Positions 10,411-60,816 of a DNA stretch of 64,000 nt are shown here, one piece after another. How positions within the stretch are numbered: the first letter of the stretch is position 1; each line of letters begins with the position of its first letter. Below the pieces are notes generated by a model. That model searched no databases. It was not told the origin of the DNA and saw only the letters and a list, made by a program, of their open reading frames with translations. The DNA is from Lachnospiraceae bacterium (GTDB lineage Bacteria; Bacillota; Clostridia; Lachnospirales; Lachnospiraceae), in contig SVEY01000006.1 in NCBI GenBank assembly GCA_015057165.1, positions 1-64,000 of the forward strand, in the 5' to 3' direction. The position numbers and the translations under genes were made by a program.

Positions 10411-11447
10411 TCGAAATGTTCAATCTCCTCTAAGGTATTTAATAATTCCATAGCAGTATATCTTTTATCCGCTTCTAAACTCATACACTTTTCTATAACA
10501 GGCCATAATGCTCCTTCTGCTCTTTTTTCTTTCGGAAATGCGCCAGTTATCAAAACATTCATAAGAACTCCCAAAGCATATATATCAGATTTTTCAAAAG
10601 AAGATGTAAATCCATAACCAACCTGTTCAGGCGCCGCGAAATTCATTGTGCCAAGATATCTTGTGTCATTACATTTATCCGACTCATACCATTTAGCAAC
10701 ATTAACATCTAATAGATATACATCACCATTCTCACATAGAATTACATTGGATGGCTTGATATCACGATGAATGATTGGTCTATTAAGATTGTGCAATACA
10801 TTAAGAATAACGCACAACTTTTTTGCCACATCTAGCGCCAATTCCATAGACATACAACCATCTTCTATATTTTCTTCTAAGGTCTTTCCAAGAATGTATT
10901 CTTCAATAACAATCAAACAATTATTGCTTTCATATAAAGAAATAATTCTAGGCATTCCCTTAATAGGATTATTCATAAGATACTCATAGATGCTTCTATC
11001 ATAGGTCTCTAAGAATTTTTTAATATAAAGATGACCTTTTTCTATATCTTCTATTAGGACAACATTACCTTTATCAGAAATAACTCTTATGTCCTTATAT
11101 TGGGACAGTTCTAGAATAGCATCATCACTTAGACCTTTATATGGATTATTGCTATCCATTATTCTTTCATCTTCAGATTCATAGAGATTAGATTCATCTA
11201 GTTTATTTTCAAAGCCACATTTCCTACATACAAATACTTCCGACTCCTCATTAAAGCCTTCCTGTATATTAAGAAGTGAATTACACTTGTCACATCTCCA
11301 TATAATATCTGAATCATTATCCATATCAGGATTAATTAGCATCTGTCCGCAGCCTAGACATACCCAATATGGTAGATTATTATCGTATCCCCTTTGTAAT
11401 GTCAGATTAGCATCGCAATTAGGGCAAAACTCATAATAATCACTCAA
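10407..11447 (-). CDS. Ser/Thr protein kinase with two zinc ribbons
   Basis: A 346-residue cytoplasmic kinase. Two N-terminal zinc ribbons (C8, C11, C30, C33 and C52, C55, C74, C77) precede a Hanks-type kinase domain (about 112-346). The catalytic loop is HRDIKPSN (H227, D229, K231, N234), the ATP-lysine is probably K143 or K144, and the activation segment ends in FAAPEQ (270-275). The usual DFG is DVN (247-249) and the glycine-rich loop is not canonical, so activity may be atypical. There is no transmembrane or PASTA sensor. The start is TTG at 11447, supported by GGAGG nine bases upstream. It is followed by the HTH-like gene. Confidence 0.85.
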   Translation of the reverse strand: MSDYYEFCPNCDANLTLQRGYDNNLPYWVCLGCGQMLINPDMDNDSDIIWRCDKCNSLLNIQEGFNEESEVFVCRKCGFENKLDESNLYESEDERIMDSNNPYKGLSDDAILELSQYKDIRVISDKGNVVLIEDIEKGHLYIKKFLETYDRSIYEYLMNNPIKGMPRIISLYESNNCLIVIEEYILGKTLEENIEDGCMSMELALDVAKKLCVILNVLHNLNRPIIHRDIKPSNVILCENGDVYLLDVNVAKWYESDKCNDTRYLGTMNFAAPEQVGYGFTSSFEKSDIYALGVLMNVLITGAFPKEKRAEGALWPVIEKCMSLEADKRYTAMELLNTLEEIEHFE

Positions 11448-11449
11448 TA

Positions 11450-12115
11450 CTATCTACCTCCACGAATCTTCTTAAGTGTTTCTCTTTCCATAACAATTAA
11501 TAGATTCATATCTTCCTCAAGAATAACATCAGGTTCAACAAAATGCCATAAGCCACCCTTCTTTCTCATGGCAACAACATTAATATTCATTGTTTTTCTT
11601 AAATCTAATTCATTTAAACTATGGCCAACCCACTCAGACATAGGAACCATCTCTAGAAGATTCAGGTTCTCATCTAGTTTAAAGCATTCATTAAGGTATG
11701 AAGACACTAAAATTCTTGCAGAGCGAGCGCCTCCTTCTTCTTCTGGATCAATTATCCGATCAGCACCAACCTTCTTAAGAATAGATGCCATTCTATTAGA
11801 ATCTGATTTGGCAATAACAAGTGGTACACCTTGTTCCTTTGCAACAGATACACACATAATACTAGCAGCAAGATTACTACCCATAGCTGTAACTACAATA
11901 TCCATATTCTTTAACCCTAATGCTAGAACTTCGTCCTCATTATTAAGATTTGCCTTAATAGATGAAGTTGAATTAGCTGTAAATTCTGCTACCACATCAG
12001 GATCACTATCTACTGCTAATACATCTGCTCCCAAATTATAAAGGTTTCGAGCGAGACTTCTACCATATTTTCCAAGACCTAAAACCGCTATTGATTTTTC
12101 TGTTGTATTATTCAT
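11450..12115 (-). CDS. ktrA: KtrA/TrkA-type potassium channel regulator
   Basis: A 221-residue RCK protein. The Rossmann NAD/ATP-binding RCK-N domain (about 8-130) shows GLGKYGRSLARNLYNLGADV, then D37 in VDSD. The RCK-C domain follows (about 140-220). Cytoplasmic rings of KtrA gate the KtrB channel, and RCK-C commonly binds c-di-AMP. It starts 9 bp after the ktrB-like gene, with its AGGAGG overlapping that gene's end. Confidence 0.9.
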   Translation of the reverse strand: MNNTTEKSIAVLGLGKYGRSLARNLYNLGADVLAVDSDPDVVAEFTANSTSSIKANLNNEDEVLALGLKNMDIVVTAMGSNLAASIMCVSVAKEQGVPLVIAKSDSNRMASILKKVGADRIIDPEEEGGARSARILVSSYLNECFKLDENLNLLEMVPMSEWVGHSLNELDLRKTMNINVVAMRKKGGLWHFVEPDVILEEDMNLLIVMERETLKKIRGGR

Positions 12116-12124
12116 ATAATCCTC

Positions 12125-13492
12125 CTATCCAACATAGAAATTACCTTCACCATGTCTAATCCTATTAGATGTATCATTTCCCTTAGAGAAAAAGATTGCC
12201 ATAGAAATTGGACCAACCCTTCCGAGGAACATGGTTAATATGATTACTAGTCGTGCAAAAACATTAAGGTTTGGTGTAAGACCTCTCGATACGCCTACCG
12301 TACCTATGGCACTAAACACTTCATATAATGCATCAGTTAGCGATATTTCTCCACTTAATAACACAAGAAGTGTCATCACAAGAGCTATAGACATATTGAC
12401 AAACACGATAGCAGATGCCTTTCTCATGCCTTCTTCTGATACCCTTTTTTTCAAAACAACATTCTCTGGTTTACCAACAACATAAGAATAAGCATTTAGG
12501 AAAAAAAGAAATGCTGTTACTGTCTTAACTCCACCTGCAGTTCCGACAGGAGAACCACCTATAAACATAAGGATACATCCAACTACACAAGATACATCTG
12601 TAAGACCATCCTGTGGAACAGATACAAATCCTGCAGTACGAAGCGTAACTGACTGGAAGAAACTATTAAGTATTTTATCTCCAAAATCCATTTCACCAAG
12701 AGTATTGGGGTTATCGTATTCCACGAAGAAGAATATTGCTGCACCAATCAAAATCAATGAAAGTGTTAATAATACAACCAATTTGCTATGTTCTGAAAAA
12801 CGCCTAACAATTGTCTTAACACTAAAACGTTTCTTGATTCCTTCTCTAATCCCATCAATTATATCATACCAGACAACAAATCCAATACCACCTACTACAA
12901 TCAAAACCATTGTAACTATCATAAGAATCGGAGAATCATTAAAATCAATCATACTATTAGGTCCAACAACATCCATCCCCGCGTTACAAAAAGCAGAGAC
13001 GGATTGAAAAATAGCTGCCCAGATTCCTTTAAAAAATCCAAGACGAGGTATGAATTCTATTGCATATATCAATGCACCTATTTCTTCCACCGCAAATACT
13101 CCAGCAACTACCCTTACAATAAAAGAGCCTACCTCTCTTCTTCTGTCAAGATTAAGAGAATCTTCTAAAAGAACTCGGTGTCCTAATGTAAATTTTTTCT
13201 TTGCAACATGCATTACAATAGCACCAACTGTCACTACACCAAGTCCACCTATCTGAATAAGTGCTACGATAATTAACTGTCCAAAAAAGCTCCAATAAGA
13301 AAAAGTATCTACAACTACAAGACCGGTAACACATACAGATGTTGTAGATGTAAACAGTGCAGTAACCAAATCCGTCCACTCTCCATTAGCACTAGAAAAT
13401 GGCATCATAAGTAGCACTGCCCCAATAATTATTACTGCCATGAAACTAAGCGGTATTAAATGTATTGGTTTCATTCTGTTATTCTTAATCAA
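12125..13492 (-). CDS. ktrB: KtrB/TrkH-type potassium uptake channel
   Basis: A 455-residue membrane protein of the TrkH/KtrB superfamily that carries K+ (with Na+ coupling in KtrB). The four pore loops with selectivity glycines are seen as TSVCVTGL, SAFCNAGMD, VTLRTAGF and GTVGVSRGL. About eight or more membrane helices surround them. The start is probably TTG at 13492, nine bases after AGGAGG; an ATG at 13474 is the alternative. It forms a two-gene operon with ktrA. Confidence 0.92.
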   Translation of the reverse strand: MIKNNRMKPIHLIPLSFMAVIIIGAVLLMMPFSSANGEWTDLVTALFTSTTSVCVTGLVVVDTFSYWSFFGQLIIVALIQIGGLGVVTVGAIVMHVAKKKFTLGHRVLLEDSLNLDRRREVGSFIVRVVAGVFAVEEIGALIYAIEFIPRLGFFKGIWAAIFQSVSAFCNAGMDVVGPNSMIDFNDSPILMIVTMVLIVVGGIGFVVWYDIIDGIREGIKKRFSVKTIVRRFSEHSKLVVLLTLSLILIGAAIFFFVEYDNPNTLGEMDFGDKILNSFFQSVTLRTAGFVSVPQDGLTDVSCVVGCILMFIGGSPVGTAGGVKTVTAFLFFLNAYSYVVGKPENVVLKKRVSEEGMRKASAIVFVNMSIALVMTLLVLLSGEISLTDALYEVFSAIGTVGVSRGLTPNLNVFARLVIILTMFLGRVGPISMAIFFSKGNDTSNRIRHGEGNFYVG

Positions 13493-14346: not shown

Positions 14347-14646
14347 ATGTTAAATGTAGTAAAACACTCAGAAAATGGAGTTGGTGTAATTGAACTATCA
14401 GGAGAACTTGATACAACTTCTTCAGTTGATTTCCAAAAGGAACTCGAAGGCTTTCTTGATGATTTACATGAACTTACAATTGATATGAAAGAATTAGAAT
14501 ATATTACTTCTGCCGGACTTCGTGTTCTTCTATTTATCGACCAGACAATGGAGGATCAAGGCAGTCTTAAAGTCATTAACGTATGTGAAGATGTTATGGA
14601 TGTCTTTGAAGTGAGTGGCTTTTCGGAGGTTCTTGACATACAATGA
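14347..14646 (+). CDS. STAS anti-sigma factor antagonist
   Basis: A 99-residue single STAS domain like SpoIIAA/RsbV. The phosphorylatable serine sits in YITSAGLRVL near residue 58. In partner switching, the dephosphorylated form binds the HATPase kinase and frees its other partner. The gene overlaps the SpoIIE phosphatase by ATGA and is followed by a HATPase gene, so all three components are in one operon. Confidence 0.93.
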   Translation: MLNVVKHSENGVGVIELSGELDTTSSVDFQKELEGFLDDLHELTIDMKELEYITSAGLRVLLFIDQTMEDQGSLKVINVCEDVMDVFEVSGFSEVLDIQ

Positions 14647-16319
14647 AAAAAAATTCATTAGTCACAAAATCTATACGCAGAATATTAATACTTGGAGTAG
14701 CTCTTCTTATTGGAATAACAATTGTTTCAGCACTTCAATTCTACAACAAAGTACAACAAACATACGAAAGTGTTAGCAATGCATATATTGCAATGATAGA
14801 TTCACAATACAGTACAGAGGAAATCACCTCCATTATTAACAATAAGGAAGAGTTAGCTAAGATTCAATCCTTATCTGACAATACGGGAAACAGCGAATAT
14901 GATTCAACAATTTATAAGACATGGGAAAGAGTTAACCAATTCATTGATAGCACTTTTTATTACTTTGACTTTACCAGATTCCAAATACTAATTCCTTCAG
15001 AAGATGGTTTTGTTAGTATATGGCATATATCTAAAGATAATGAAGGCAGTCGTGACCCTATGTCTAAGCAGACATTAACCAAGATGGAATCAGCTGTAAT
15101 CAAATCTTTATATAATGCTAGTGATATAATATATGCAGATAATCTATTAATACACTGGAAAAACAACAAGATTATAGGAACAACAATAGAAACTATAGGA
15201 GATAATGATGGCAAAACTATTGCTATCGCTGAGCTTGATATAGATATAACACAAATTGGATATTCAATTATTCAACTTGCTTTAGTAATATCATTATTCA
15301 TTATCTTCGTATTGGCATTTGCCTTAAACCTTTATTTCTATTATACAAAACGAGAAGTTCTAAAGCCTATTCTTCAATTAGATGGTGCCACTAAGAATCT
15401 TGTTGATAAATTAAAGCGAAATGAAAAGACACAGCATCTCAACATTCGCACTAATGATGAAATCGAATCTCTCTCTCACTCATTTGAGTCCATGGAAGAG
15501 AATCTAAGAAACTATATAATAGAGAATAATGCTATTACAGCAGAAAGGGAACAAATTAAAGCACAATTAAGCTTGGCGACAGGTATTCAATCTGACATGC
15601 TTATTAAGGAATTTCCTCCGTTCCCTGAGCGAAATGAATTCCATATATATGCATCTATGAATCCGGCTAAAGAAGTTGGTGGTGATTTCTATGATTTCTT
15701 CTTAATAGATGACAACCAATTAGCTCTTGTAATAGCTGATGTGTCGGGCAAGGGTTTTCCTGCAGCTCTATTTATGATGAGAACAATGCTAATGATTCAA
15801 AGTCTTGCCACTAACACAGATAATCCTGCCTTGATTCTTGAGAAACTCAACAAATTAATATGTAAGAATAATGATAGTAAAATGTTTGTCACTGTCTGGC
15901 TTGGAATTCTTGATTTAAATACTGGAGTTCTTAAGGCATCCAACGCAGGTCATGAATTCCCGATTATTAAAGAGCCTGGCAAACAATTTGAACTTTACAA
16001 AGACAAACATAGTTTTGTTATTGGCGGAAAGAAAAAGACAAAATACAAAGAATATGAATTGGTTTTACGCCCCGGCACTACTCTATTTCTATATACAGAT
16101 GGTGTTCCAGAAGCAACAAACAGCGACGGTATCAGATTTCAAATCGACAACACATTAGACGCTCTAAATATGAATCCAAATGCATCAGTTGACCAGCTTA
16201 TTAATACTGTTGCAACTAGCGTATCTGATTTTGTATTAGATGCAGAGCAATTTGATGATCTGACAATGCTTTGTATTGAATATACGGGTCAAAAAGATAA
16301 CAATAATAGTGAGGGATAA
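14643..16319 (+). CDS. Membrane SpoIIE-type PP2C phosphatase
   Basis: A 558-residue sensor phosphatase. TM1 is at about 13-31, an extracytoplasmic sensor domain at about 32-198, TM2 at about 199-222, a HAMP-like linker at about 223-285, a coiled coil, then the SpoIIE PP2C domain (about 330-552). Metal-binding acidic motifs are visible: GGDFYDF, DVSGKG, GTTLFLYTDG and QFDDLTML. It should dephosphorylate the STAS protein encoded just upstream in response to an external signal that is unknown. Confidence 0.92.
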   Translation: MKKNSLVTKSIRRILILGVALLIGITIVSALQFYNKVQQTYESVSNAYIAMIDSQYSTEEITSIINNKEELAKIQSLSDNTGNSEYDSTIYKTWERVNQFIDSTFYYFDFTRFQILIPSEDGFVSIWHISKDNEGSRDPMSKQTLTKMESAVIKSLYNASDIIYADNLLIHWKNNKIIGTTIETIGDNDGKTIAIAELDIDITQIGYSIIQLALVISLFIIFVLAFALNLYFYYTKREVLKPILQLDGATKNLVDKLKRNEKTQHLNIRTNDEIESLSHSFESMEENLRNYIIENNAITAEREQIKAQLSLATGIQSDMLIKEFPPFPERNEFHIYASMNPAKEVGGDFYDFFLIDDNQLALVIADVSGKGFPAALFMMRTMLMIQSLATNTDNPALILEKLNKLICKNNDSKMFVTVWLGILDLNTGVLKASNAGHEFPIIKEPGKQFELYKDKHSFVIGGKKKTKYKEYELVLRPGTTLFLYTDGVPEATNSDGIRFQIDNTLDALNMNPNASVDQLINTVATSVSDFVLDAEQFDDLTMLCIEYTGQKDNNNSEG

Positions 16320-16320
16320 T

Positions 16321-16749
16321 ATGAAAGAGATAATAGTAGATGCTACAATGGATAATGTAGAAAAAGTAATTCAATTTGTATGTAATCCTTTAAAAGAACT
16401 TGAATTTAGCAAAAAATCTATTATGCATGTTCGTCTAGCCTGTGAAGAAATACTTGTTAATATCGTAAGTTATGCATATTCGGATGCTTCACAAAATACT
16501 AATAAAACAATGAAAGTAAAATATGAAATCATTGAAGATGAAAAAGAAGTACAAATTGTATTTGAAGATTCAGGAATTCCATTTAACCCATTAGAAAATA
16601 AAGATCCTGATATTACATTAAAAGGTTCAGAAAGAACTCCTGGTGGACTTGGGATATATATGACCAAAAAATTTATGGATGACATTCAATATGAATATAA
16701 AGAGAACAAGAATATTCTTACAGTCAGAAAAAAGCCTATTACTAAATAG
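16321..16749 (+). CDS. RsbW-like HATPase (anti-sigma kinase type)
   Basis: A 142-residue GHKL ATPase. The N box (CEEILVNIVSYAY), G1 box (EDSGIPFNP) and G2 box (GGLGIYMTKK) are all present. It should phosphorylate the STAS serine and bind an unknown effector; no sigma factor gene is nearby. The ATG at 16321 is chosen because GAGGG lies just upstream, next to the SpoIIE stop. A frame extending to 16276 lies inside the phosphatase gene. Confidence 0.9.
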   Translation: MKEIIVDATMDNVEKVIQFVCNPLKELEFSKKSIMHVRLACEEILVNIVSYAYSDASQNTNKTMKVKYEIIEDEKEVQIVFEDSGIPFNPLENKDPDITLKGSERTPGGLGIYMTKKFMDDIQYEYKENKNILTVRKKPITK

Positions 16750-20024: not shown

Positions 20025-20054
20025 TATACACATTTATTATATAAAATGCGACAT
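20025..20054 (-). promoter_or_regulatory. Shared Nif11-regulon element A
   Basis: On the minus strand: ATGTCGC, 15 bases, TGTGTATA. On the plus strand TATACACA starts at 20025 and GCGACAT at 20048, 23 bp apart. The same two boxes with the same spacing occur at five other places in the window. It is read as a promoter or activator site 71 bp before Nif11-leader gene 2. Confidence 0.85.
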
Positions 20055-20072: not shown

Positions 20073-21866
20073 CTATTTATCCATCGCAAAAATATCAGAC
20101 TTAAATTCTTTACCAAACATATCAACAGCAACAACTTGAACAAAGTATTTAGACACATTAATATCTCTACTATTAAGCGTCAATCCATTTCTATCAATTG
20201 TAAATCTCTTACCATTTACTTCTATCTCATCTCCTGGTTTTAGTGGAAACACATCCCTGCTTGCAGTTCCTACGTCATTATCAAATAACACTACCCCTAC
20301 TTGCTGAAGCTTATTAGAGAACAAACCATTTAACACTGCAAATCTAAAGGATTCAGGGACTCCATTTCTTGTGACTTTACTCATATATATTTCAGCGTCA
20401 GTAGAATCATCTACTTGAGTAGCCATAACAGGATGTCCTTCAATCTCGAAGCATTTCCCATCATAATCAACCGTAAAATCAAGATTATTCCAGTCTGCAT
20501 CCTTGTCATTAACATACTTACTTATTATAGGATTACCTAAAGAACCGTCTTGATTCTGTTCGTAAATTGTATATGTTACATTGAGAAGATAACGACCACT
20601 TTCAGGTGTTAATGTAACATGGAACTTATTATCATCCCCCATATAACCTGCATTCTTATAGCTTATAGTAGTCTCTGGAATATTATTGAATATATCTCTT
20701 ATAAGTTTACTATATGATTCACTAGGACATATCTTAAGATACTCTTGTATCTCATCCATATAATAATGACTAGGATAATATACAGACAGCCCTGTTGCAT
20801 TAGATTTGATATCTCCGTTTACTTTATATAGAATAGCATTCTTAACAGCGCTATCAACAGCATTGGCCTTCTCATTATTAATCTCACGGGAACTAAGATT
20901 ATATATATCGTAACCTGAAAGCTCATGTGCAGCTCCTGCAAGATCAACAAAATTGTCCATGTGACCATTTGAATTGGCTCCAAAGGAAGCTGAATTCTTA
21001 ATAGCAATTCTAAGAGCTAATCGCCCATCACTACTATCCATCTCATCATCAATATCTGTCATCATTTCATCGAAGGCTTTAGATATTGTCTCAAAGTTCG
21101 TAAGGTCTACAGCAGATAAAGTTGCTGTAGATGCCTTGTCTACCTTAGTACATTTATCCATATATCCATCACATATATCCTTGGCTAAATCTTTACCTGC
21201 CTTCTTAGATAAGGACTTTCCAATAGTACTATAATCCCATCCCAAGCCAACTTCATAATTCTGAGAAGCAATAAGCATATCAGAAAACTTAGATAGAGCA
21301 TTTGCAACTTCGTAATCTGCCATAAGACATGCATCAAAGCCAACTACTGATAATCTCTTACCATTAAGTCCTTTATCTAACGCTTCTTCCATCTCTGGAA
21401 TAGTAAGGGTATCGTTACTATACTTCTCATCAAAGCATGCACCCTTAACAGTTCCACCACCATGATCCCACAGAAGTAGCATTGTATTATCAGATGGATA
21501 TGTAGTAGTACCAAATTCCACAAAATCACGTAAAGTATTAGAATCTCCCATATTAGCATCATCAAGACGTGCAAGTTCTTGTAACTTATGATCTTTCACA
21601 AGGTAACGCACTATCTTGTCATTAGGGATGTCATTCTCTTGCCACTTGTTAGCACCACCTGTCTGAATAACAACATTTACATTATTAGGGATATTAGAAT
21701 CTAACAGTTCCTTAATATTCTCACTGGCAATTCCCGTCTTAGACTCAAGGTCTGAGCCACACATGTAGATAAGAAGGGTTACGGAGGAAGGCGCTTTGCT
21801 ACAAGAACAAAGTGCCATAACAAGAACAAGTATCATAATTGGAAGTACAATTTTCTTATGTCGCAT
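20073..21866 (-). CDS. Clostripain-like (C11) peptidase lipoprotein
   Basis: A 597-residue exported cysteine peptidase of the C11/clostripain family. A signal peptide (1-21) ends in a LCSC lipobox, so it should be anchored outside the membrane. The catalytic His is H135 in LWDHGGG and the Cys is C180 in GFDACLM, which is the family signature. The N-terminal 200 residues form the caspase-like fold; the C-terminal 200 (about 385-597) look like beta-sandwich repeats. Clostripain cuts after Arg/Lys. The ATG at 21866 is set by GGAG; it lies 17 bp after the SpoIIE gene. The two Nif11-leader genes follow it. Confidence 0.88.
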   Translation of the reverse strand: MRHKKIVLPIMILVLVMALCSCSKAPSSVTLLIYMCGSDLESKTGIASENIKELLDSNIPNNVNVVIQTGGANKWQENDIPNDKIVRYLVKDHKLQELARLDDANMGDSNTLRDFVEFGTTTYPSDNTMLLLWDHGGGTVKGACFDEKYSNDTLTIPEMEEALDKGLNGKRLSVVGFDACLMADYEVANALSKFSDMLIASQNYEVGLGWDYSTIGKSLSKKAGKDLAKDICDGYMDKCTKVDKASTATLSAVDLTNFETISKAFDEMMTDIDDEMDSSDGRLALRIAIKNSASFGANSNGHMDNFVDLAGAAHELSGYDIYNLSSREINNEKANAVDSAVKNAILYKVNGDIKSNATGLSVYYPSHYYMDEIQEYLKICPSESYSKLIRDIFNNIPETTISYKNAGYMGDDNKFHVTLTPESGRYLLNVTYTIYEQNQDGSLGNPIISKYVNDKDADWNNLDFTVDYDGKCFEIEGHPVMATQVDDSTDAEIYMSKVTRNGVPESFRFAVLNGLFSNKLQQVGVVLFDNDVGTASRDVFPLKPGDEIEVNGKRFTIDRNGLTLNSRDINVSKYFVQVVAVDMFGKEFKSDIFAMDK

Positions 21867-21882
21867 AGTTTTATCTCCAACT

Positions 21883-23628
21883 TTATTTGCTTTTATATTC
21901 CACACAAAGCATTGTTAAATCATCAAATTGAGTAGTATCCTTTGAAAATTCATCTACATCTTCTCTAATGCCTCTAAGAATTCCTTCTGGAGACTGATCT
22001 TCTATATCATTTATTCTACTCTCTAATCGCTCCATTCCATACATTTCTCCAGAGGAATTAACTGCTTCAGGAATACCATCAGTATATACAAATATAGCAT
22101 CACCTTTATTAAGTGATAACTCGTAGTCTTCATAATTTGTACCTGGAAGCACGCCTACCATCTTTTCTCGCTTATCCTCATAGATTTTAAAGCCTTCATC
22201 CTTTGTCCTAATAAATGGATATTCATGTCCCGCATTAGTACATTTTAAATTACCAGTTCTAAGATTAAGAATTCCCATCCATACAGTAACAAACATCATC
22301 TCATCATTATCAATACTAATCTGATTATTAACATCTGTAAGAATTTCCCCAGGACTACCACCATTCTTAGCACGATAGTTAATAAGTATCTTAGTAGACA
22401 TCATAAATAGTGCTGCCGGAATACCCTTGTCTGATACATCAGCAATAAGAATAAACAGGTTATCATCATCTATCATGAAAAAGTCATAGAAATCTCCACC
22501 GACTTCTTTTGCCGGAGACATACTGGCATACAAATCAAATTCTTCTCTATCAGGGAATGCAGGAAATATATTAGGAAGCATAGATGCCTGTATTCTCTTT
22601 GCCATATCAAGCTCTGTATTAACCCTCTCTCTTTCAGCAGTTATCTTCGTTAGCTTATTAGTCCCTTCTATAATACGTCGTTGCATTGAGCGAATCTCGT
22701 TATACAAATCTCCAATCTCGTCATTGGACTTTATAGGAAGATTAATTACATCTTCCATAGAAAAACCCTCATCCTCATTCTTGGCAAATCCTGTAGCGCC
22801 CTGAGATAACTGCTTAAGTGGTTTTGTCGCAAACTTCCTGGTTAGTAAAAGGCTTATAAGAATTACCACAAAAGTTAATACGATAACAAAGACAGCACTA
22901 TTGATTAAAAACCAGTTTCTATCCTCAGTTACATTACTCAAATCAAAATCCACACATACATGTGCAACCAGTTCATTACCATTTATATCAGTATCTGATA
23001 TAACCTCTGAGGCAGTACAAATCCACTCTCCCTTGTATTCGTAAACAGTTGCATCAATTGGCTCATCATCTTTATATGTTGCGAATTCTTCTACCGGATC
23101 ATCTACGCTTCCAATGAATGTGAGCTTTTCCGTTGGGTCCATCAGGTTATATGTAACACCGTTCTTCACATACTGCAAATATACACTCTTAAGATTGAAT
23201 ATTTCCTGTTGTTTTTTCAAATAATTACTGAAGGACATATACTCTTCATAGAATGTATTATTTCGCTTTACTTCATTTCCATTTTCATCCACATCTTCTT
23301 CAAAGGAATAAATGGATGGACGTGCTTTCATCCAGTCGATAATATATTTGTCATCATTAGATTCAATTGCCTGTCTTTTCGCCTCCTTAAAACTTTCGTC
23401 ATTAATCATATCCACGTAAGCGGATACAGGTACTGCTCCAGCAAATCCCTCAGTTATTGAATCTGCCACCTGATTGGCACGTTGATAATATATTTCGTTA
23501 ATCTTCTGCTCATAGAATATATCTGTAACTAGTAAAAGAACTATCGCGAGTACAACCATACCAATAATGGTCATAATATTCAATTTAAATCCTAAATCAA
23601 ATCTATGTTTTATTTTCTCTTTCTTCAC
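21883..23628 (-). CDS. Membrane SpoIIE-type PP2C phosphatase, second copy
   Basis: A 581-residue sensor phosphatase with the same plan as the one at 14643. TM1 is at about 18-38, an extracytoplasmic sensor at about 39-230, TM2 at about 232-256, HAMP at about 257-312 and SpoIIE PP2C at about 345-578 (GGDFYDF, DVSDKG, GDAIFVYTDG, QFDDLTML). The sensor domain differs from the first copy. It is divergent from a STAS gene and upstream of the clostripain-like gene. No HATPase partner is adjacent. Confidence 0.92.
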   Translation of the reverse strand: MKKEKIKHRFDLGFKLNIMTIIGMVVLAIVLLLVTDIFYEQKINEIYYQRANQVADSITEGFAGAVPVSAYVDMINDESFKEAKRQAIESNDDKYIIDWMKARPSIYSFEEDVDENGNEVKRNNTFYEEYMSFSNYLKKQQEIFNLKSVYLQYVKNGVTYNLMDPTEKLTFIGSVDDPVEEFATYKDDEPIDATVYEYKGEWICTASEVISDTDINGNELVAHVCVDFDLSNVTEDRNWFLINSAVFVIVLTFVVILISLLLTRKFATKPLKQLSQGATGFAKNEDEGFSMEDVINLPIKSNDEIGDLYNEIRSMQRRIIEGTNKLTKITAERERVNTELDMAKRIQASMLPNIFPAFPDREEFDLYASMSPAKEVGGDFYDFFMIDDDNLFILIADVSDKGIPAALFMMSTKILINYRAKNGGSPGEILTDVNNQISIDNDEMMFVTVWMGILNLRTGNLKCTNAGHEYPFIRTKDEGFKIYEDKREKMVGVLPGTNYEDYELSLNKGDAIFVYTDGIPEAVNSSGEMYGMERLESRINDIEDQSPEGILRGIREDVDEFSKDTTQFDDLTMLCVEYKSK

Positions 23629-50026: not shown

Positions 50027-50299
50027 TTACCAAGATGTACCACAGTCTTGACATGTCCAAATATGGACTTCAGCATTATTTGGTAGCTGTTTCACCTTAT
50101 GCTTAATATTCTTAGAACCACAGCTTGAACATCTGCAAGTGCTGTTACCACAATATCCACCTGTAACAGCTTCAAGCTGATCATCAGAAAGTTCAATTCC
50201 TTCAGACTTAGCAAGTGCTAGAATTTCCTCTGAACTCTCACAAGATTCAACCTTCTTAATCTGCTCCTCTGATAATCCCTGTAATAATTCTTTTCTCAT
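50027..50299 (-). CDS. Nif11-leader zinc-ribbon protein 3
   Basis: A 90-residue family member. The leader ends EAVTGG at residue 48 and is followed by Y-C. The tail has extra cysteines (CGNSTCRCSSC) and CQDC, ending TSW. The ATG at 50299 is set by GGGGGTAA; an in-frame start at 50341 falls in the conserved leader-RNA hairpin. The regulon element is 84 bp upstream. It is its own transcription unit, ended by a strong terminator. Confidence 0.85.
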   Translation of the reverse strand: MRKELLQGLSEEQIKKVESCESSEEILALAKSEGIELSDDQLEAVTGGYCGNSTCRCSSCGSKNIKHKVKQLPNNAEVHIWTCQDCGTSW

Positions 50300-50382: not shown

Positions 50383-50412
50383 TATACACATTTAAAATGT
50401 AAAATGCGACAT
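50383..50412 (-). promoter_or_regulatory. Shared Nif11-regulon element B
   Basis: TATACACA at 50383 and GCGACAT at 50406 on the plus strand, 23 bp apart; the intervening bases match elements C and D. It lies 84 bp upstream of Nif11-leader gene 3. Confidence 0.87.
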
Positions 50413-50553
50413 ATTTTATGAGATTTTTAATAAAACCAAGCATTACACCATCATTACTACTATTTGTTCATATCAATTATTATAGCATACTAAAAGAACT
50501 GTGACACTTATTGTGCCACAGCCCCTTGTCACTATTATCTTGACCATTGAATG

Positions 50554-52221
50554 CTACCTCAGATCATAAACCCCTTCAGAAACATACTGGGCACCATTTT
50601 CCATGTTTATGTACTGGCTACCCAAAGGACTTTTTTCAATAATATTATCATTATATGATTCTGTTATTACTGCATCCTTAAGAAGATTTCCATCCCATGT
50701 AACCAAATCACATGTCACTTTGGTTTTGCTTTTTGTTGAAATATCAAACATCACGCCCATTTCTGACTGAGTGTAATCGCCCAAATCGCCAATACCTGCC
50801 AAGGCCAAATCTTCAAGTAATGTTTTTCCATGAAATTTTGATACATATTTTTCAACAATTCCTGTCGAAACATTAACTCCATTCTTTGTCTCTTCTCCGG
50901 CCCATTGTGCAGCACTTATATAAATTGCATGTAGCCTTTTATCAAATGTGCCACTGTAAAGACCATTTTCAAGATCTAATGAATATCCATATGCACCTTT
51001 CTCAATTTTATGCCAATTATCTGATACAACTTTCGGACTCACACCGGGACCATTCTGTTCTATCTGTGTAAGAGAATCGTTCAAGAGTTGACCATACTTT
51101 TGATATACCACAGCCGTATTTCCTGTACCTATATTATAATATAATGATATTAAAGCATAGGCTCTTTTCACTTGGTATTCTGCGTTACCACGATAAGCTA
51201 CACGAAGTGAATAACCTTGGCTTTCCCAATTAAAATACGTATTCCAATAATTATCATAGGCTGTAAGAGGACTAAAGTCTTTCGTCTTACTTAGTTCTCC
51301 TGTTACAAGTGTATAATTATTAATGAGGTCATTCATTATACTATCAAAGTTCTTAAGATTAGGATTAGTGTTTTGTTGCTCTTCAATAGTAGCAATTAAC
51401 TTGCCTATATATTCTTGTCTTTCGGCATCTGTTGCATTCTCCGCCGGTGCATTTACTCCCTGTTGTTGTAAAATCACAGCTCCTTCTGTTAACATTTGTT
51501 GTAATATCTCTGCATCAGTATCAAGAGCAACCATTGCATTATCAAATGGCTGTAATCCATTTCGATAAGCCTGCAAAGTTGTTTCATCAAGTTGCATACT
51601 CATTGCTGATGTGAGACCTTGAAGATCCTTAACATCTAATGCCACATCCTGAACTGCACTATACACTTTCTGAACTTCCATAAGAATCTGTTCATTAGAT
51701 GCTCCGGAACTTCCGCCGTCATATATACCGAACATATTTAGGAATCCACTTACTCCAGATATTGCTGCACCTACATCACCTGTATAATATGCTCTTACGA
51801 TGTTAAATGTATTTATTCCAAACTCAGTAACCTTACCAAAGGTTGGGTCAACCTGATTGACTGTTTCAGCAGTATAATCAGCAACAGCATTGTAGTTATT
51901 CCATCTAAGCTTCTTGGCGTTAGTTTCCTGCATATACTGTAGTTCAGGACTTGGCTGTTCTCCGTCACGAGCTATTATTGCAGGTAGCTGCTTCTCGATA
52001 TCTAATACATTCTTAACTGTTGCATCCGCTTTGTCTGTAACTTCAAGTCCATTGTCTGTAAGATTCGTTCCCTCCGGAATTGCAATGTCCTTATTCTTGA
52101 AATCACATTTATACCCAGTAGTTGTTGTGTTGTTAGTAGTAGAGTTCGAACATGAGCATCCTGCTAGTGTGGATACTAGTAGAATTGCTATTAACCCTAT
52201 TGCTACGATACGTTTTTTCAT
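50554..52221 (-). CDS. Large lipoprotein of the Nif11 regulon
   Basis: A 555-residue lipoprotein of unknown function. The signal peptide (1-21) ends in LAGC, followed by a Ser/Asn/Thr spacer (23-36). Residues about 110-190 hold a Gly/Ala-rich hydrophobic segment (GDVGAAISGVSGFLNMFGIY), then long helices to about 300, a central region with aromatics and a mixed C-terminus. The helical layout recalls alpha-helical pore-forming or delta-endotoxin-like proteins, but this is only a resemblance. Its promoter element (52276-52305) matches those of the Nif11-leader genes, so it belongs to their regulon. Confidence 0.7.
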   Translation of the reverse strand: MKKRIVAIGLIAILLVSTLAGCSCSNSTTNNTTTTGYKCDFKNKDIAIPEGTNLTDNGLEVTDKADATVKNVLDIEKQLPAIIARDGEQPSPELQYMQETNAKKLRWNNYNAVADYTAETVNQVDPTFGKVTEFGINTFNIVRAYYTGDVGAAISGVSGFLNMFGIYDGGSSGASNEQILMEVQKVYSAVQDVALDVKDLQGLTSAMSMQLDETTLQAYRNGLQPFDNAMVALDTDAEILQQMLTEGAVILQQQGVNAPAENATDAERQEYIGKLIATIEEQQNTNPNLKNFDSIMNDLINNYTLVTGELSKTKDFSPLTAYDNYWNTYFNWESQGYSLRVAYRGNAEYQVKRAYALISLYYNIGTGNTAVVYQKYGQLLNDSLTQIEQNGPGVSPKVVSDNWHKIEKGAYGYSLDLENGLYSGTFDKRLHAIYISAAQWAGEETKNGVNVSTGIVEKYVSKFHGKTLLEDLALAGIGDLGDYTQSEMGVMFDISTKSKTKVTCDLVTWDGNLLKDAVITESYNDNIIEKSPLGSQYINMENGAQYVSEGVYDLR

Positions 52222-52275
52222 AGTAATATACCTCCTACCCCTTTAAGAAAATGCTTTTCCTCTCTTTACTATTAA

Positions 52276-52305
52276 TATACACGAGGGACATTAAAAATGC
52301 GACAT
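52276..52305 (-). promoter_or_regulatory. Shared Nif11-regulon element F
   Basis: TATACACG at 52276 and GCGACAT at 52299 on the plus strand, again 23 bp apart, though the middle bases differ. It lies 55 bp before the lipoprotein start. It is the only copy not in front of a Nif11-leader gene. Confidence 0.82.
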
Positions 52306-52337
52306 TTTTTCTATGTTCTAAAGGAAAAGTTACAAAG

Positions 52338-52365
52338 AACGGCTTCATCTCACAATGAAGCCGTT
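52338..52365 (-). terminator. Terminator of Nif11-leader gene 4
   Basis: AACGGCTTCAT (52338-52348) pairs with ATGAAGCCGTT (52355-52365) with a 6-nt loop. The T tract on the minus strand is weak. Confidence 0.75.
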
Positions 52366-52402
52366 ACCACTAAATAATATACCACATTTTATACCAGAAG
52401 GG

Positions 52403-52675
52403 TTAAAAGAGTTTTTTTATGTATACATTTCCACACTCCAAGCATTCATATTTACTTCTTTCAACATCTTTTACGCGCTTTACTTTCTTAGAGCCACACT
52501 CAGGACATTTATCGGTGGCAATGCTGCATCCTCCACCTGAAACTGCCTCAAGCTGCTCATCAGTTAATGTAACTCCTTCTTCTTTCGCGAGCGCTAAGAT
52601 TTCCTCTGAATCCTTGCAATTCTCTAACTTCTTAATCTGCTCGTCTGTTAATCCCTTTAATAATTCTTTTCTCAT
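52403..52675 (-). CDS. Nif11-leader zinc-ribbon protein 4
   Basis: A 90-residue family member. The leader ends EAVSGG at residue 48 and is followed by G-C. The tail has CPEC and CLEC separated by a Lys/Arg-rich stretch (KKVKRVKDVERSKY), ending KKLF. The ATG at 52675 follows GAGGTAA. Its upstream region from the ribosome site to the regulon element is almost the same as that of gene 3, which suggests duplication of the whole unit. Confidence 0.85.
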   Translation of the reverse strand: MRKELLKGLTDEQIKKLENCKDSEEILALAKEEGVTLTDEQLEAVSGGGCSIATDKCPECGSKKVKRVKDVERSKYECLECGNVYIKKLF

Positions 52676-52711
52676 AGTAGTTACCTCCTCGTTAGTCTTA
52701 TAAATAATATA

Positions 52712-52740
52712 CCACATTTTAATTAGATTTGTTTATGTGG
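52712..52740 (-). promoter_or_regulatory. Conserved 5' UTR hairpin of Nif11-leader gene 4
   Basis: CCACAT (52712-52717) and ATGTGG (52735-52740) can pair. The block is nearly identical to that before gene 3. Half of it also recurs between genes 5 and 6 (54062-54090) and after gene 4 (52372-52391). Confidence 0.6.
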
Positions 52741-52758
52741 ATTTGCCTTTCACTTATA

Positions 52759-52788
52759 TATACACATTTAAAATGTAAAATGCGACAT
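52759..52788 (-). promoter_or_regulatory. Shared Nif11-regulon element C
   Basis: TATACACA at 52759 and GCGACAT at 52782 on the plus strand, 23 bp apart, with the same middle bases as B and D. It lies 84 bp before Nif11-leader gene 4. Confidence 0.87.
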
Positions 52789-52835
52789 TTTTTTGTATTC
52801 TCAATAAGATTAAGTATCTGAATTTGTCCTCCTAA

Positions 52836-53570
52836 TTAATGATGACATTTGCCATGACTATGACCACATACATGGCCGTCTCCATGTTCATGCTCATGAT
52901 GGTCGCAATTAGCTTCTCCACTTGCATCAAGTGTGCCTGCTATAAATTCATTTATCACATCGTCTGTATTTCCACTTGCACCTGCATATAAATCAATTCC
53001 TGCTTCTACAAGAGCCCTCTGGGCTCCGCCACCAATTCCACCACAAATAAGCGCATCTACATCAGCAATATTCAAGATGCCTGCAAGAGCTCCACAACCT
53101 TCACCATTTGTATCTAGAATTTGAGAATTAATAACCTTTCCATCCTCAATATCATATACTTTGAATTGCTCCGTCCTTCCAAAATGTCCAAATACATTTC
53201 CATTATCATATGTTACTGCTACTCTCATTACTCTCTCTCCTTTGTCATTAATACTTACATTTAGATTGCTTCTTTCCCTGTCAAGCTCAATGTTTCCACC
53301 TGCAATAAGAAGCCTTTTTCCTTCAATAATCGCACTTACTAACTTCCTTCTTGCGCTTTCATACATGGCTGTCACAGTCGTCCTGGCAACACCCATTCTA
53401 TTTGCACATTCCGCCTGATTAAGACCATCATAATCAAGAAGTCTTATGGTCTCATATTCATCAAGGGATAGCATTATCGAATCAATACGCTTGGACTTTG
53501 CATCCTCAGGAATAAAACTATAATAATCAGGAAAACTACATATTTTTCTACATTTAGGGGTTCTGGCCAT
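52836..53570 (-). CDS. DUF134 HTH fused to NifX/NifB-type domain
   Basis: A 244-residue protein. Residues about 1-95 are a DUF134 DNA-binding domain (RTPKCRKICSFPDYYSFIPE, then SLDEYETIRLLDYDGLNQAE and a sigma-70-like HTH). Residues about 120-225 form a dinitrogenase FeMo-cofactor biosynthesis-type domain (FGHFGRTEQFKVYDI, GEGCGALAGIL, CGGIGGGA), then a His/Cys metal-binding tail (HHEHEHGDGHVCGHSHGKCHH region). Such fusions occur in non-diazotrophs and may sense metal or Fe-S status. The ATG at 53570 follows GGAGGG. Paired palindromes upstream suggest autoregulation. Confidence 0.88.
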   Translation of the reverse strand: MARTPKCRKICSFPDYYSFIPEDAKSKRIDSIMLSLDEYETIRLLDYDGLNQAECANRMGVARTTVTAMYESARRKLVSAIIEGKRLLIAGGNIELDRERSNLNVSINDKGERVMRVAVTYDNGNVFGHFGRTEQFKVYDIEDGKVINSQILDTNGEGCGALAGILNIADVDALICGGIGGGAQRALVEAGIDLYAGASGNTDDVINEFIAGTLDASGEANCDHHEHEHGDGHVCGHSHGKCHH

Positions 53571-53590
53571 ATTTCCCTCCAAAAATAATA

Positions 53591-53638
53591 TTGACATATG
53601 TCAGAATAAGCATAACGCTTTTTATGACATATGTCAAT
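53591..53638 (-). promoter_or_regulatory. Paired palindromic operators and promoter of the DUF134-NifX gene
   Basis: The 12-bp palindrome TGACATATGTCA occurs at 53592-53603 and 53625-53636, 33 bp apart. The minus-strand TTGACA of the right copy (53637-53632) is followed after 17 bp by TATGCT (53614-53609), so one operator covers the -35 and the other lies just downstream of the start site. Confidence 0.88.
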
Positions 53639-53688
53639 ATAATTTTAAGGCTAGGTTCATTCTTTGCTACTTATTTTGACAGAAGTTA

Positions 53689-53719
53689 TAAAAAAGCGCT
53701 GGCTATAATTAGCCGGCGC
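53689..53719 (-). terminator. Terminator of Nif11-leader pair 6-5
   Basis: GCGCTGGCT (53696-53704) pairs with AGCCGGCGC (53711-53719) with one G-T pair. The minus strand then has six or more T. Confidence 0.88.
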
Positions 53720-53747
53720 CTTGCGATTCCTTTTGGAATTAATCTGT

Positions 53748-54044
53748 CTAAAAGTCAGCACCTCTAGTAGACCACCTATGTAAGCAGTCTTGGCATACAT
53801 AGTCATATCTCATCCTACCATCTTCCAAATCCTCACCAATCTTCATAATATTAGTTGAACTACATTTTGGGCATACTTTTTTCTTTTGTCCACCACAGCT
53901 TCCACCAGTAACAGCCTCAAGCTGCTCATCATTCAACGCAACTCCCTCAGACTTAGCAAGTTCTAAGATTTCCTCTGGGCTCTTACAAGCTTCAACCTTC
54001 TTGATTTGCTCTTCTGATAATCCTTTTAATAATTCTTTTCTCAT
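53748..54044 (-). CDS. Nif11-leader zinc-ribbon protein 5
   Basis: A 98-residue family member. The leader ends EAVTGG at residue 48 and is followed by S-C. The tail has CPKC and CQDC with an acidic loop between (GEDLEDGRMRYDY) and ends RGADF. It is 53 bp downstream of gene 6 with no regulon element of its own, so it is probably co-transcribed with it. The gap still carries half of the conserved UTR block. Confidence 0.85.
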   Translation of the reverse strand: MRKELLKGLSEEQIKKVEACKSPEEILELAKSEGVALNDEQLEAVTGGSCGGQKKKVCPKCSSTNIMKIGEDLEDGRMRYDYVCQDCLHRWSTRGADF

Positions 54045-54097
54045 AATAGTTACCTCCTATTTATTCTTATAAATAATATATCACATTTTAATTAGAT

Positions 54098-54400
54098 TTA
54101 AAGTAAACGACCATTTTCACCTTCTCTAAATGTAGCACCGCAACTCTTGCACTTTATCTGAGTATATTCATTTCCATTTTCATCTATTTGTTTAGATTTT
54201 TTCTTTCCATCTGTATGTCCACAGAAAGGACATAGCCAATCAGGATCAAAGCAGCCACCACCGCTTACAGCCGCAAGCTGCTCTTCGTTAAGTTCAACAC
54301 CTTCTGCCTTGGCAAGTGCTAAGATTTCCTCTGAACTCTTGCAAGCTTCAACCTTCTTGATTTGCTCTTCTGATAAACCCTTTAATAATTCTTTTCTCAT
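54098..54400 (-). CDS. Nif11-leader zinc-ribbon protein 6
   Basis: A 100-residue family member. The leader ends AAVSGG at residue 48 and is followed by G-C. The tail has CPFC and CKSC with a Lys/Asp/Glu-rich middle. The leader is nearly identical to that of gene 5, while the tails differ. The regulon element lies 82 bp upstream. Gene 5 follows. Confidence 0.85.
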   Translation of the reverse strand: MRKELLKGLSEEQIKKVEACKSSEEILALAKAEGVELNEEQLAAVSGGGCFDPDWLCPFCGHTDGKKKSKQIDENGNEYTQIKCKSCGATFREGENGRLL

Positions 54401-54481
54401 AGCGGTTACCCCCTTATTACTATATTAATATTATAAAACATTTTTCCTATAATGCTTATATAAATTAGCCTTACACTATTA

Positions 54482-54511
54482 TATACACATTTAAAATGTA
54501 AAATGCGACAT
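54482..54511 (-). promoter_or_regulatory. Shared Nif11-regulon element D
   Basis: TATACACA at 54482 and GCGACAT at 54505 on the plus strand, 23 bp apart, identical to B and C across the middle. It lies 82 bp upstream of Nif11-leader gene 6. Confidence 0.87.
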
Positions 54512-60369: not shown

Positions 60370-60720
60370 CTATTTGAATAAATCCACACTCCAAGTGTGA
60401 CCACAGTCATTGCATGTGCAATTGACTTTAGAACATTCAATATTGTTTCTATAAGTATCATATTCTTGTGTGTAATTATGAGAACCACAACTATAACAAT
60501 ACGTTTTGATTAAATTGGGATAAACATGATCAAGTGTCTTATCTGTAGCATAGTCAAAGGGATTTTTGAGTCTACAACCACCTGATACTGCTTCTAGTTG
60601 CTCTTCGCTAAGAGTTACCCCTTCTGCCTTGGCAAGTGCTAGAATCTCTTCCGCATTCTTGCAGGCTTCTACTTTCTTTATTTGCTCCTCTGTTAATCCC
60701 TTTAATAATTCCTTTTTCAT
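60370..60720 (-). CDS. Nif11-leader zinc-ribbon protein 7
   Basis: A 116-residue member, the longest of the seven. The leader ends EAVSGG at residue 48 and is followed directly by Cys. The tail begins with a 25-residue segment (CRLKNPFDYATDKTLDHVYP and more), then CYSC, an extra C and CNDC, ending SVDLFK. The ATG at 60720 follows AGGGGTGA-type sequence. Its regulon element is 67 bp upstream. Confidence 0.85.
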   Translation of the reverse strand: MKKELLKGLTEEQIKKVEACKNAEEILALAKAEGVTLSEEQLEAVSGGCRLKNPFDYATDKTLDHVYPNLIKTYCYSCGSHNYTQEYDTYRNNIECSKVNCTCNDCGHTWSVDLFK

Positions 60721-60786: not shown

Positions 60787-60816
60787 TATACACCTCTTTG
60801 ACATGGAATGCGACAT
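60787..60816 (-). promoter_or_regulatory. Shared Nif11-regulon element E
   Basis: TATACACC at 60787 and GCGACAT at 60810 on the plus strand, 23 bp apart. The middle bases differ from B, C and D, which points to the two end boxes as the conserved parts. Confidence 0.83.

Follow-up and report, generated by a model that had tools for sequence, protein, structure and literature searches.

A bipartite element in front of scattered Nif11-like leader peptide genes in the Lachnospiraceae: a probable promoter of a dedicated ECF sigma factor

The stretch of DNA analyzed here, referred to as the window, comprises 64,000 nucleotides from a Lachnospiraceae bacterium (GenBank assembly GCA_015057165.1, contig SVEY01000006.1, positions 1 to 64,000 of the forward strand). 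Six upstream regions in the window carry the same pair of short boxes, five in front of units that begin with a gene for a Nif11-like leader peptide and one in front of a gene for a predicted lipoprotein of 555 amino acids (aa). Peptide precursors that are scattered over a genome are hard to place in one pathway, and the locus raises the question of what recognizes the element that these units share. An earlier note on this DNA had proposed that the element defines a new regulon and had offered two mechanisms, namely, a promoter for an alternative sigma factor or an activator site beside a TATA-like -10 box. The comparisons described below indicate that the element is probably the promoter of a single dedicated extracytoplasmic function (ECF) sigma factor, which would switch on scattered secreted-peptide genes together.

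RESULTS

Two boxes at a fixed spacing recur in the window and the genome

The pattern TATACAC-N16-GCGACAT matches the window exactly six times, and the count remains six when two mismatches are allowed, whereas only 0.29 matches are expected at that setting from 100 dinucleotide shuffles, none of which attained six. The starts of the two 7-base boxes are offset by 23 bp, which leaves a gap of 16 bp between them; the downstream genes all lie on the minus strand, and the coding-strand form of the element is ATGTCGC-N16-GTGTATA. The element ends 54 to 83 nt upstream of the ATG in all six units (Table 1), and the middle bases vary at 52276 and 60787 with both boxes kept. The earlier note had described six regions with boxes 23 bp apart, the five leader units and one lipoprotein behind them, and boxes that stay while the middle differs, and it was accurate on each of these points.

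The genome-wide motif search that the earlier note had proposed as a check returned, at no more than one mismatch, 28 sites in the 2.59 Mb and 40 contigs of the genome that holds the window, hereafter the source genome (23 exact and 5 with one mismatch), versus 2 for the element pattern read backwards. These 28 sites were used to build a sequence-only profile of 69 columns, R1, whose E values are rough. R1 finds 29 sites in the source genome at an E value of <2e-9, with the next best candidate at 0.015, and the site gained in this way (C37:36682) has a 15-bp spacer.

When R1 was searched in 116 genomes, the source genome (G000) included, with the best 43 candidates per genome scored, sites were found in 5 genomes, all from one genus. 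The 96 sites (29, 12, 24, 14, and 17 per genome) were all read in the DNA, and the spacer measures 16 bp in 93 of them and 15 bp in the other 3. On the -10 side, the conserved sequence reaches as far as GTGTATATAT; beyond it, in columns 37 to 42 of the element on the coding strand, is a third block, TG-A-AAG, which coincides with the predicted start site and shifts by 1 to 2 nt. The boxes of the earlier note stand, while its 30-bp length falls short of the conserved region. Among 27 representatives that are less than 80% alike, drawn from the 93 sites with a 16-bp spacer, TGTCGCAT and GTGTATATAT are near-invariant and spacer positions 13 to 23 drift; in the full set of 93, a G is found at position 24 in every site and at position 26 in 92.

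Conservation of this kind could in principle reflect recent copying, with the element carried along with the leader units as a duplicating cassette or serving as a recombination site. Long common flanks are consistent with such copying, since AATCTAATTAAAATGTGG follows the element at 7 of the 29 source genome sites and 21 of the 96 sites overall and GAGCCAGGTTATAG precedes it at 5 of the 29, and remnants of units are common (7/96). However, the 27 dissimilar representatives retain the boxes while the spacer drifts, unrelated genes are also preceded by the element (the lipoprotein family at 6 of the 96 sites and the cluster peptide described below at 3) amid flanks that otherwise differ, and the element is found in another genus. 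Copying could account for how many units there are but would leave conservation confined to the boxes unexplained, and we regard it as a very improbable account of the element.

Leader peptides and one lipoprotein family lie behind the element

In the source genome, the 29 sites precede 23 leader genes with a MRKELLKGLTEEQIKK...SGG-type start, 3 lipoprotein genes of one family, 1 peptide/radical-SAM cluster, and 1 leader remnant, the last site being near a contig end with no gene that could be assigned to it. Across the five genomes, the 96 sites divide into 71 leader genes, 7 leader remnants, 6 lipoprotein genes (one family), 3 cluster peptides, 2 contig ends, and 7 sites without an assignable gene. 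These classes were obtained with a leader profile built from 49 sequences that a simple rule had selected at the same sites, while 18 sites labeled "other" and 1 mislabeled "lipobox" were assigned by reading; G001:C3:144 and G000:C40:12832 are counted among the unassigned sites even though they lie near contig ends. Many random matches with no bias toward a gene family, which the earlier note had named as the finding that would overturn a regulon, did not appear in this search. Its proposal of a regulon is instead supported by the genome counts, the gene bias, and the conservation of the element in five genomes of the genus and in a sixth from another genus.

The leader profile finds 33 genes in the source genome (best 43 of 56 candidates scored), of which 23 lie directly behind an element, 4 are second in tandem, 1 is at a contig edge, and 5 form an array of leader/zinc-ribbon genes that has no element (G000:C6:119692-121480). 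Several units of this array retain the element-to-gene stretch but not the element. Since the contig ends 132 nt upstream of the array, read-through from further up is possible, and the five genes are possibly silent cassettes or a read-through operon. Separately, two or three divergent, facing elements occur at G000:C4:63409-63519, G002:C47:13069-13536, and G007:C17:225940-226047, with one element serving an intact leader gene and the others worn remnants, an arrangement common to these three genomes.

Another explanation is that the element functions at the RNA level or as the operator of a repressor, with an ordinary promoter further downstream, TGGTATATT, which lies ~50 bp behind the element in some units. 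This sequence occurs no more than 100 nt behind the element at 10 of the 29 source genome sites and 29 of the 96 sites and is also present in units of the elementless array. It is missing, however, from the other 67 of the 96 sites, and diverged units keep the element but not the TGGTATATT stretch. In addition, the lipoprotein units have only 52 to 56 nt between element and ATG, and the sole TATATT there adjoins the ribosome-binding site. Given these observations, we consider a role in RNA or as an operator extremely unlikely.

Most of the leaders end in Gly-Gly, which is followed by a CxxC..CxxC core, and 59 of the 71 leader genes have at least two CxxC motifs. The family is large and paralogous, with a hypervariable core and a Gly-Gly pair (G47-G48) that is invariant in alignment A3. 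Since the leaders score below the curated cutoffs (at best 21.7 of 32.3 bits for TIGR03798 and 20.4 of 23.8 bits for PF07862), we refer to them as Nif11-like. When a profile of 11 leader/core peptides was compared with solved structures, zinc-finger proteins were matched through the core, the best being a C2H2 zinc finger (2.3e-7), and TFIIS/RPB9-type zinc ribbons reached 0.0011; we think that the latter are the nearer fold.

The 555-aa lipoprotein has no match in Pfam or NCBIfam, and its family numbers at least 57 homologues when the best 7989 candidates by shared words are scored. Among solved structures it has one match, at chance level (E value of 0.74). The protein is predicted to be mostly helical with a beta-rich C-terminal part, and its model (mean pLDDT of 67.8) has no Foldseek match in the PDB at an E value of ≤0.001; weak helical matches to 14-3-3 and Vip3 proteins were not used.

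The source genome has one recognized ECF sigma gene, in a cluster headed by the element

Sigma-70 region 2 has four matches in the source genome: a 556-aa frame, presumed to be the primary sigma factor; a flagellar-type sigma factor of 254 aa in a chemotaxis region, typed by its neighbors and sequence; a SigH-type sigma factor, typed in the same way, behind genes read from their sequences as cysS-mrnC-rlmB; and a single recognized ECF sigma factor. The last of these is a 168-aa protein encoded on contig C4, outside the window contig. It contains regions 2 and 4_2, with scores of 66.7 bits for PF04542 (cutoff, 24), 48.7 for PF08281 (cutoff, 25.7), and 104.6 for TIGR02937 (cutoff, 42.9), and the sigma matches reach residue 160.

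The ECF sigma gene belongs to a cluster in which the element is followed by genes for a 72-aa peptide, a radical-SAM/SPASM enzyme, a SpoIIE-type phosphatase, a STAS protein, the sigma factor, and an RsbW-like kinase, the last two genes overlapping by 4 nt. Behind the kinase lie genes for a 129-aa protein (labeled HlyD-like by position, with no match in Pfam or NCBIfam), a C39-peptidase ABC transporter, a second ABC transporter, a MATE-type protein, and a Cache/SpoIIE phosphatase. Because the best NCBIfam matches of the transporters are below the equivalog cutoffs (826.3 of 853.3 bits for TIGR03796 and 585.5 of 709.4 bits for TIGR03797), we call them NHLM-type. The 72-aa peptide, which contains DELDMVSAAG and matches no family, is likely the substrate of the radical-SAM enzyme; its relatives at L176, L205, L185, L174, L284, L285, and L287 (the weakest, with an E value of 4e-4) adjoin the sigma gene even where the sigma factor is only 40 to 50% identical.

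In each of the five element-bearing genomes of the genus, the source genome among them, an element stands at the head of the sigma/exporter cluster. Genes for the sigma factor, kinase, STAS protein, radical-SAM enzyme, and C39 transporter are common to all five clusters, and their order is changed in two. The G007 cluster has no match of the same form to the MATE-type gene and the phosphatases, and the G005 cluster is cut off within the C39 gene by the end of its contig.

An ordinary sigma-A promoter was set aside, since neither box fits its -35 or -10 and the near-invariant G24 and G26 would be left unexplained, in agreement with the remark in the earlier note that neither box is a normal sigma-A -35. 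The layout of the boxes is, in contrast, that of an ECF promoter, and we therefore read ATGTCGCAT as the -35 box and GTGTATATAT as the -10 box of the cluster's 168-aa sigma factor. We infer from this layout that the sigma factor would bind the element and that transcription would start ~6 to 8 nt beyond GTGTATATAT, inside the TG-A-AAG block. The C39-peptidase ABC transporter of the cluster would then cut the leaders after Gly-Gly and export them. LahT150, the protease domain of a Lachnospiraceae transporter, is described in the available portion of its report as cleaving Nif11-family leaders after Gly-Gly in vitro (PMC6363468).

If the two boxes were instead an activator site, with direct TGT half-sites 23 bp apart, the activator would recruit sigma-A polymerase and TATATA would serve as a weak -10. 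TGTCGC and TGTATA do both hold TGT, a 23-bp step is close to two helical turns, a TATA-like -10 is present, and a further conserved block lies downstream. Apart from TGT, however, the boxes are unlike each other; G24 (93/93) and G26 (92/93) do not fit a sigma-A or extended -10; and a 1-bp shift in spacing is tolerated in 3 of the 96 sites, as in ECF41 promoters (16 ± 1). No activator gene common to the clusters was recognized either, the other clusters having been compared by homology to the source genome's genes. These observations lead us to regard the activator site as unlikely. Two 271-aa genes that adjoin the source genome cluster were considered as encoding a regulator and rejected; they have no Pfam match, and of the four other clusters of the genus that were compared, only that of G001 has counterparts.

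The element and the sigma factor share a distribution

Since R1 was built from sites in the source genome, only the 67 sites in the other four genomes of the genus and 3 sites in a genome of another genus, G311, are out of sample. Orthologues of the sigma factor that are 70 to 100% identical are found in exactly the same 5 of the 116 genomes, with the next best at 39%. The leader profile, scored for the same number of candidates as R1, has 13 to 33 matches in each of the five and one weak match each in G003 and G059. The C39 transporter is at least 87% identical in the same five genomes, and more distant transporters occur in ten others (best 9 candidates per genome).

A search for the sigma factor in 397 genomes of the family (best 9 candidates each) revealed one further close relative, at 67% identity, in G311. 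This genome was picked by its sigma factor alone, and it has three R1 sites (E values of 1.5e-13, 9.4e-9, and 1.5e-5). Behind them lie genes for a leader/zinc-ribbon peptide, a truncated leader (at the site with a 15-bp spacer), and the cluster peptide. In the other eleven genomes of this 12-genome test, five with sigma relatives of 39 to 50% identity among them, the best E value was 0.0136 or worse. When R1 was searched in 397 family genomes (best 12 candidates each), clear matches were obtained only in G000, G007, and G311, which are the three of the 397 that have a sigma factor of at least 67% identity.

A 19-base pattern scanned against 84,980 species, a set that may leave out records of the source genome, matched 37 stretches in five assemblies: RUG145 (7), RUG191 (9), Sheep_2_mag_58 (15), UBA3626 (5), and SIG280 (1). 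The first four correspond to G001, G005, G002, and G007, respectively, and the SIG280 stretch is identical to a site in G311. The G311 cluster encodes an ECF sigma factor, a radical-SAM enzyme, an HlyD-like protein, and two ABC transporters, and the sigma factor is the only DNA-binding regulator seen there, including in a scan of five neighbors. This cluster is immediately preceded by two cation-efflux genes of the zinc-transporter type (Table 1), and a link to the zinc-ribbon peptides is possible.

We also considered whether the sigma relatives of 39 to 50% identity (in G131, G424, G292, G430, and G017) use the same motif. This idea was dropped, as the five genomes have no R1 site with an E value below 0.0157. 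TGTCGC-N15-18-GTGTA has no match in the stretches read from these genomes and from G019 and G048, and the printed upstream regions of G131, G424, and G292 have no obvious counterpart of the element.

A number of observations weigh against a dedicated ECF sigma factor as the reader of the element. To our knowledge, sigma factors do not usually make contact with a block such as TG-A-AAG downstream of the -10 box, and the -10 box is without the CGTC of ECF41 promoters. Since the radical-SAM enzyme, the exporter, and the leader family share the distribution of the element, co-occurrence does not by itself point to the sigma factor in particular. Within the genus, the agreement is 5 of 8 genomes against 5 of 8 (~0.018 assuming independence), and these genomes are related. 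The two 397-genome searches are, judging by their handles, the same draw, and weak sites or relatives could escape them; in four other family genomes, R1 has single matches at E values of 2.3e-4 to 6.9e-4, which we take for chance. The assembly that holds the G311 sequence had surfaced in the pattern scan before G311 was picked, and G311 itself has no element directly upstream of the sigma gene and no STAS, RsbW, or PP2C genes beside it. Finally, 7 of the 96 sites are without an assignable leader, lipoprotein, or cluster gene, and 5 of the 33 leader genes of the source genome are in the elementless array, which fits the proposal least well. Taken together with these points, the box layout, the lone ECF gene, its cluster, and the shared distribution nevertheless favor the alternative sigma factor over the activator site, the two mechanisms that the earlier note had left side by side.

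Partner switching may control the sigma factor

The proteins encoded beside the ECF sigma gene include an Rsb-type set, namely, a kinase, a STAS protein with an acceptor serine, and SpoIIE-type phosphatases, all above the Pfam cutoffs (65.3 bits for PF13581, 48.3 for PF01740, and 154.7 and 147.9 for PF07228). Sequence comparison matches this STAS protein to structures of SpoIIAA and SigB antagonists, and its LKYVSSAGL stretch is at what we take to be the usual phospho-serine site. Together, the kinase, the STAS protein, and the phosphatases could hold and release the sigma factor by partner switching, a proposal that we consider evenly poised. It is the weakest step of the proposed mechanism, since other targets are possible, G311 has none of these genes beside its sigma gene, and RsbW-like matches occur at three more places in the source genome, including one in the window. 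Modules of the STAS/kinase/phosphatase type can act on other targets, according to the part of a published account available to us (PMC3999984).

A second Rsb-type module lies near the leader unit at 20025 in the window. It consists of a 99-aa STAS protein (PF01740, 51.2 bits), a 558-aa SpoIIE phosphatase, and a 157-aa RsbW-like kinase (PF13581, 74.7 bits), and another SpoIIE phosphatase, of 581 aa, is encoded on the other side of the unit. This module may feed the same sigma factor or another one.

Single-sequence searches of 18 exporter-type stretches in the family, 17 of which have an exporter match, found a STAS protein, kinase, and phosphatase in G065; a phosphatase and STAS protein in a second cluster of G001 and a third stretch of G005; a STAS protein and ECF sigma factor in G048; and an ECF sigma factor in G019, with none of these in the other 13. 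The exporter of G424 is flanked by a phosphatase, an ECF sigma factor, a STAS protein, and a kinase.

In the source genome cluster, the interval from the radical-SAM gene to the phosphatase-STAS-sigma genes contains a terminator-like hairpin and a sigma-A-like promoter with 11 of 12 matching bases (TTCACA-17-TATAAT); total counts in the cluster are not above those of shuffles (22 versus 20.2 for promoter-like and 1 versus 1.5 for terminator-like sequences). G002 likewise has a hairpin with a U-rich tail ahead of its sigma gene, and in G007 such a hairpin is found around the beginning of the STAS gene that precedes the sigma gene, so that a terminator-like hairpin is found between the cluster element and the sigma gene in all three clusters scanned. 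Given these hairpins, transcription from the element may serve chiefly the peptides; the sigma factor would then come from an ordinary promoter and have its activity set after translation.

Table 1. Positions of the element, the genes behind it, and neighboring features (window coordinates unless a locus is named)
Feature	Position	Strand	Remarks
Element A	20025..20054	-	ATGTCGCATTTTATATAATAAATGTGTATA on coding strand: predicted -35, 16-bp spacer, -10; exact match; R1 E = 1.4e-12
Element B	50383..50412	-	Exact match; R1 E = 2.3e-17
Element C, variant middle	52276..52305	-	Exact match; R1 E = 8.8e-10
Element D	52759..52788	-	Exact match; R1 E = 4.8e-19
Element E	54482..54511	-	Exact match; R1 E = 2.9e-15
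Element F, variant middle	60787..60816	-	Exact match; R1 E = 6.2e-12
Nif11-like leader peptide, CxxC..CxxC core, 99 aa	19655..19954	-	ATG 70 nt behind element A; TIGR03798, 21.1 bits (cutoff, 32.3)
Second tandem Nif11-like leader/zinc-ribbon peptide, 93 aa	19355..19636	-	49 nt behind first profile match
Nif11-like leader/zinc-ribbon peptide, 90 aa from MRKELL	50027..50299	-	ATG 83 nt behind element B; PF07862, 17.8 bits (cutoff, 23.8)
Predicted lipoprotein, 555 aa, LAGC lipobox	50554..52221	-	54 nt behind element C
Nif11-like leader/zinc-ribbon peptide, 90 aa	52403..52675	-	ATG 83 nt behind element D
Nif11-like leader/zinc-ribbon peptide, 100 aa	54098..54400	-	ATG 81 nt behind element E; PF07862, 20.4 bits (cutoff, 23.8)
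Second tandem Nif11-like leader/zinc-ribbon peptide, 98 aa	53748..54044	-	75 nt behind previous profile match
Nif11-like leader/zinc-ribbon peptide, 116 aa from MKKELL	60370..60720	-	ATG 66 nt behind element F
Cluster peptide, 72 aa	L033:14199-14417	-	
Cation-efflux genes upstream of G311 cluster	L284:9406-10539, 11362-12249	+	Zinc-transporter type
Rsb-type module region	14347-16749	+	
Rsb-type module region	21883-23628	-	
Clostripain-family (C11) peptidase	20073-21905	-	
Nonribosomal peptide synthetase, 3576 aa	24049-34779	-	

DISCUSSION

The ECF sigma factor, the Rsb-type switch, the NHLM-type export system, and the Nif11-like leaders are each of a known kind, and what is new is their combination, in which one predicted ECF sigma factor, possibly under Rsb-type switching, would serve scattered, multiplying leader peptides and lipoproteins. 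The ECF41 promoter of Bacillus licheniformis and Rhodobacter, the closest published one that we found, is given as TGTCACA-n16 (16 ± 1)-CGTC (PMC3426412) and resembles the element in its bipartite form, its TGTC-A -35 box, and its spacer. The ECF41 promoter nevertheless has CGTC at -10, where the element combines TGTCGCAT with GTGTATATAT. ECF41 proteins also carry a C-terminal regulatory extension, whereas the 168-aa protein has only regions 2 and 4 above the Pfam cutoffs; its proposed targets differ as well, being leader peptides.

Release of an ECF sigma factor by a partner switch, as proposed here, has a counterpart in the EcfG/PhyR-NepR system of the alphaproteobacterial general stress response, and the ECF partner switching covered in the available parts of two reviews is of this sigma-mimic EcfG type (PMC8103513 and PMC8999054). 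EcfG switching works through a sigma-mimic response regulator, whereas the neighbors here are RsbW-like, STAS, and SpoIIE-type proteins, and the word STAS appears in neither review. The RsbU-RsbV-RsbW systems of SigB and SigF are similar in having a PF13581 kinase, a PF01740 STAS protein, and PF07228 phosphatases beside a sigma gene; the adjoining sigma factor here is, however, an ECF protein rather than one of the SigB/SigF type. Control of the sigma factor by the Rsb-type genes, if real, would extend STAS/RsbW partner switching to ECF sigma factors.

On the export side, a C39-peptidase ABC transporter with a second ABC transporter and paralogous double-Gly leaders are shared, as far as the accessible sections describe them, with NHLM export (PMC2887384) and with LahT of Lachnospiraceae C6A11 (PMC6363468). 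The transporters and leaders here are below the family cutoffs, and the precursor genes are scattered through the genome. The NHLP/Nif11 export paper (PMC2887384) nowhere uses the word sigma. In the open-license literature, no description of this regulon was found in the titles or abstract openings retrieved on Nif11, NHLP export, and ECF/STAS/RsbW topics, and nothing was found that combines Nif11 with a zinc ribbon.

Through the common element, no fewer than 23 leader genes and 3 lipoprotein genes of the source genome are tied to a single predicted sigma factor and a single predicted exporter, and a simple DNA pattern allows further members to be found far from any cluster. Since deletion of a single sigma gene should silence the set, the function of the zinc-ribbon peptides becomes testable. 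A broader picture, to which we incline somewhat less than to its opposite, is that a new ECF lineage under a classical Rsb-type partner switch, with Cache/HAMP-bearing SpoIIE phosphatases, might fire dispersed, fast-duplicating Gly-Gly-leader zinc-ribbon peptides, helical lipoproteins, and the exporter as one combinatorial secreted arsenal or signal set.

Two further genes of the window are recorded here as neighbors. The gene next upstream of the leader unit at 20025 encodes a clostripain-family (C11) peptidase, and the minus strand also carries a gene for a nonribosomal peptide synthetase with three adenylation matches, whose best NCBIfam match, to the aureusimine synthetase, is below the cutoff.

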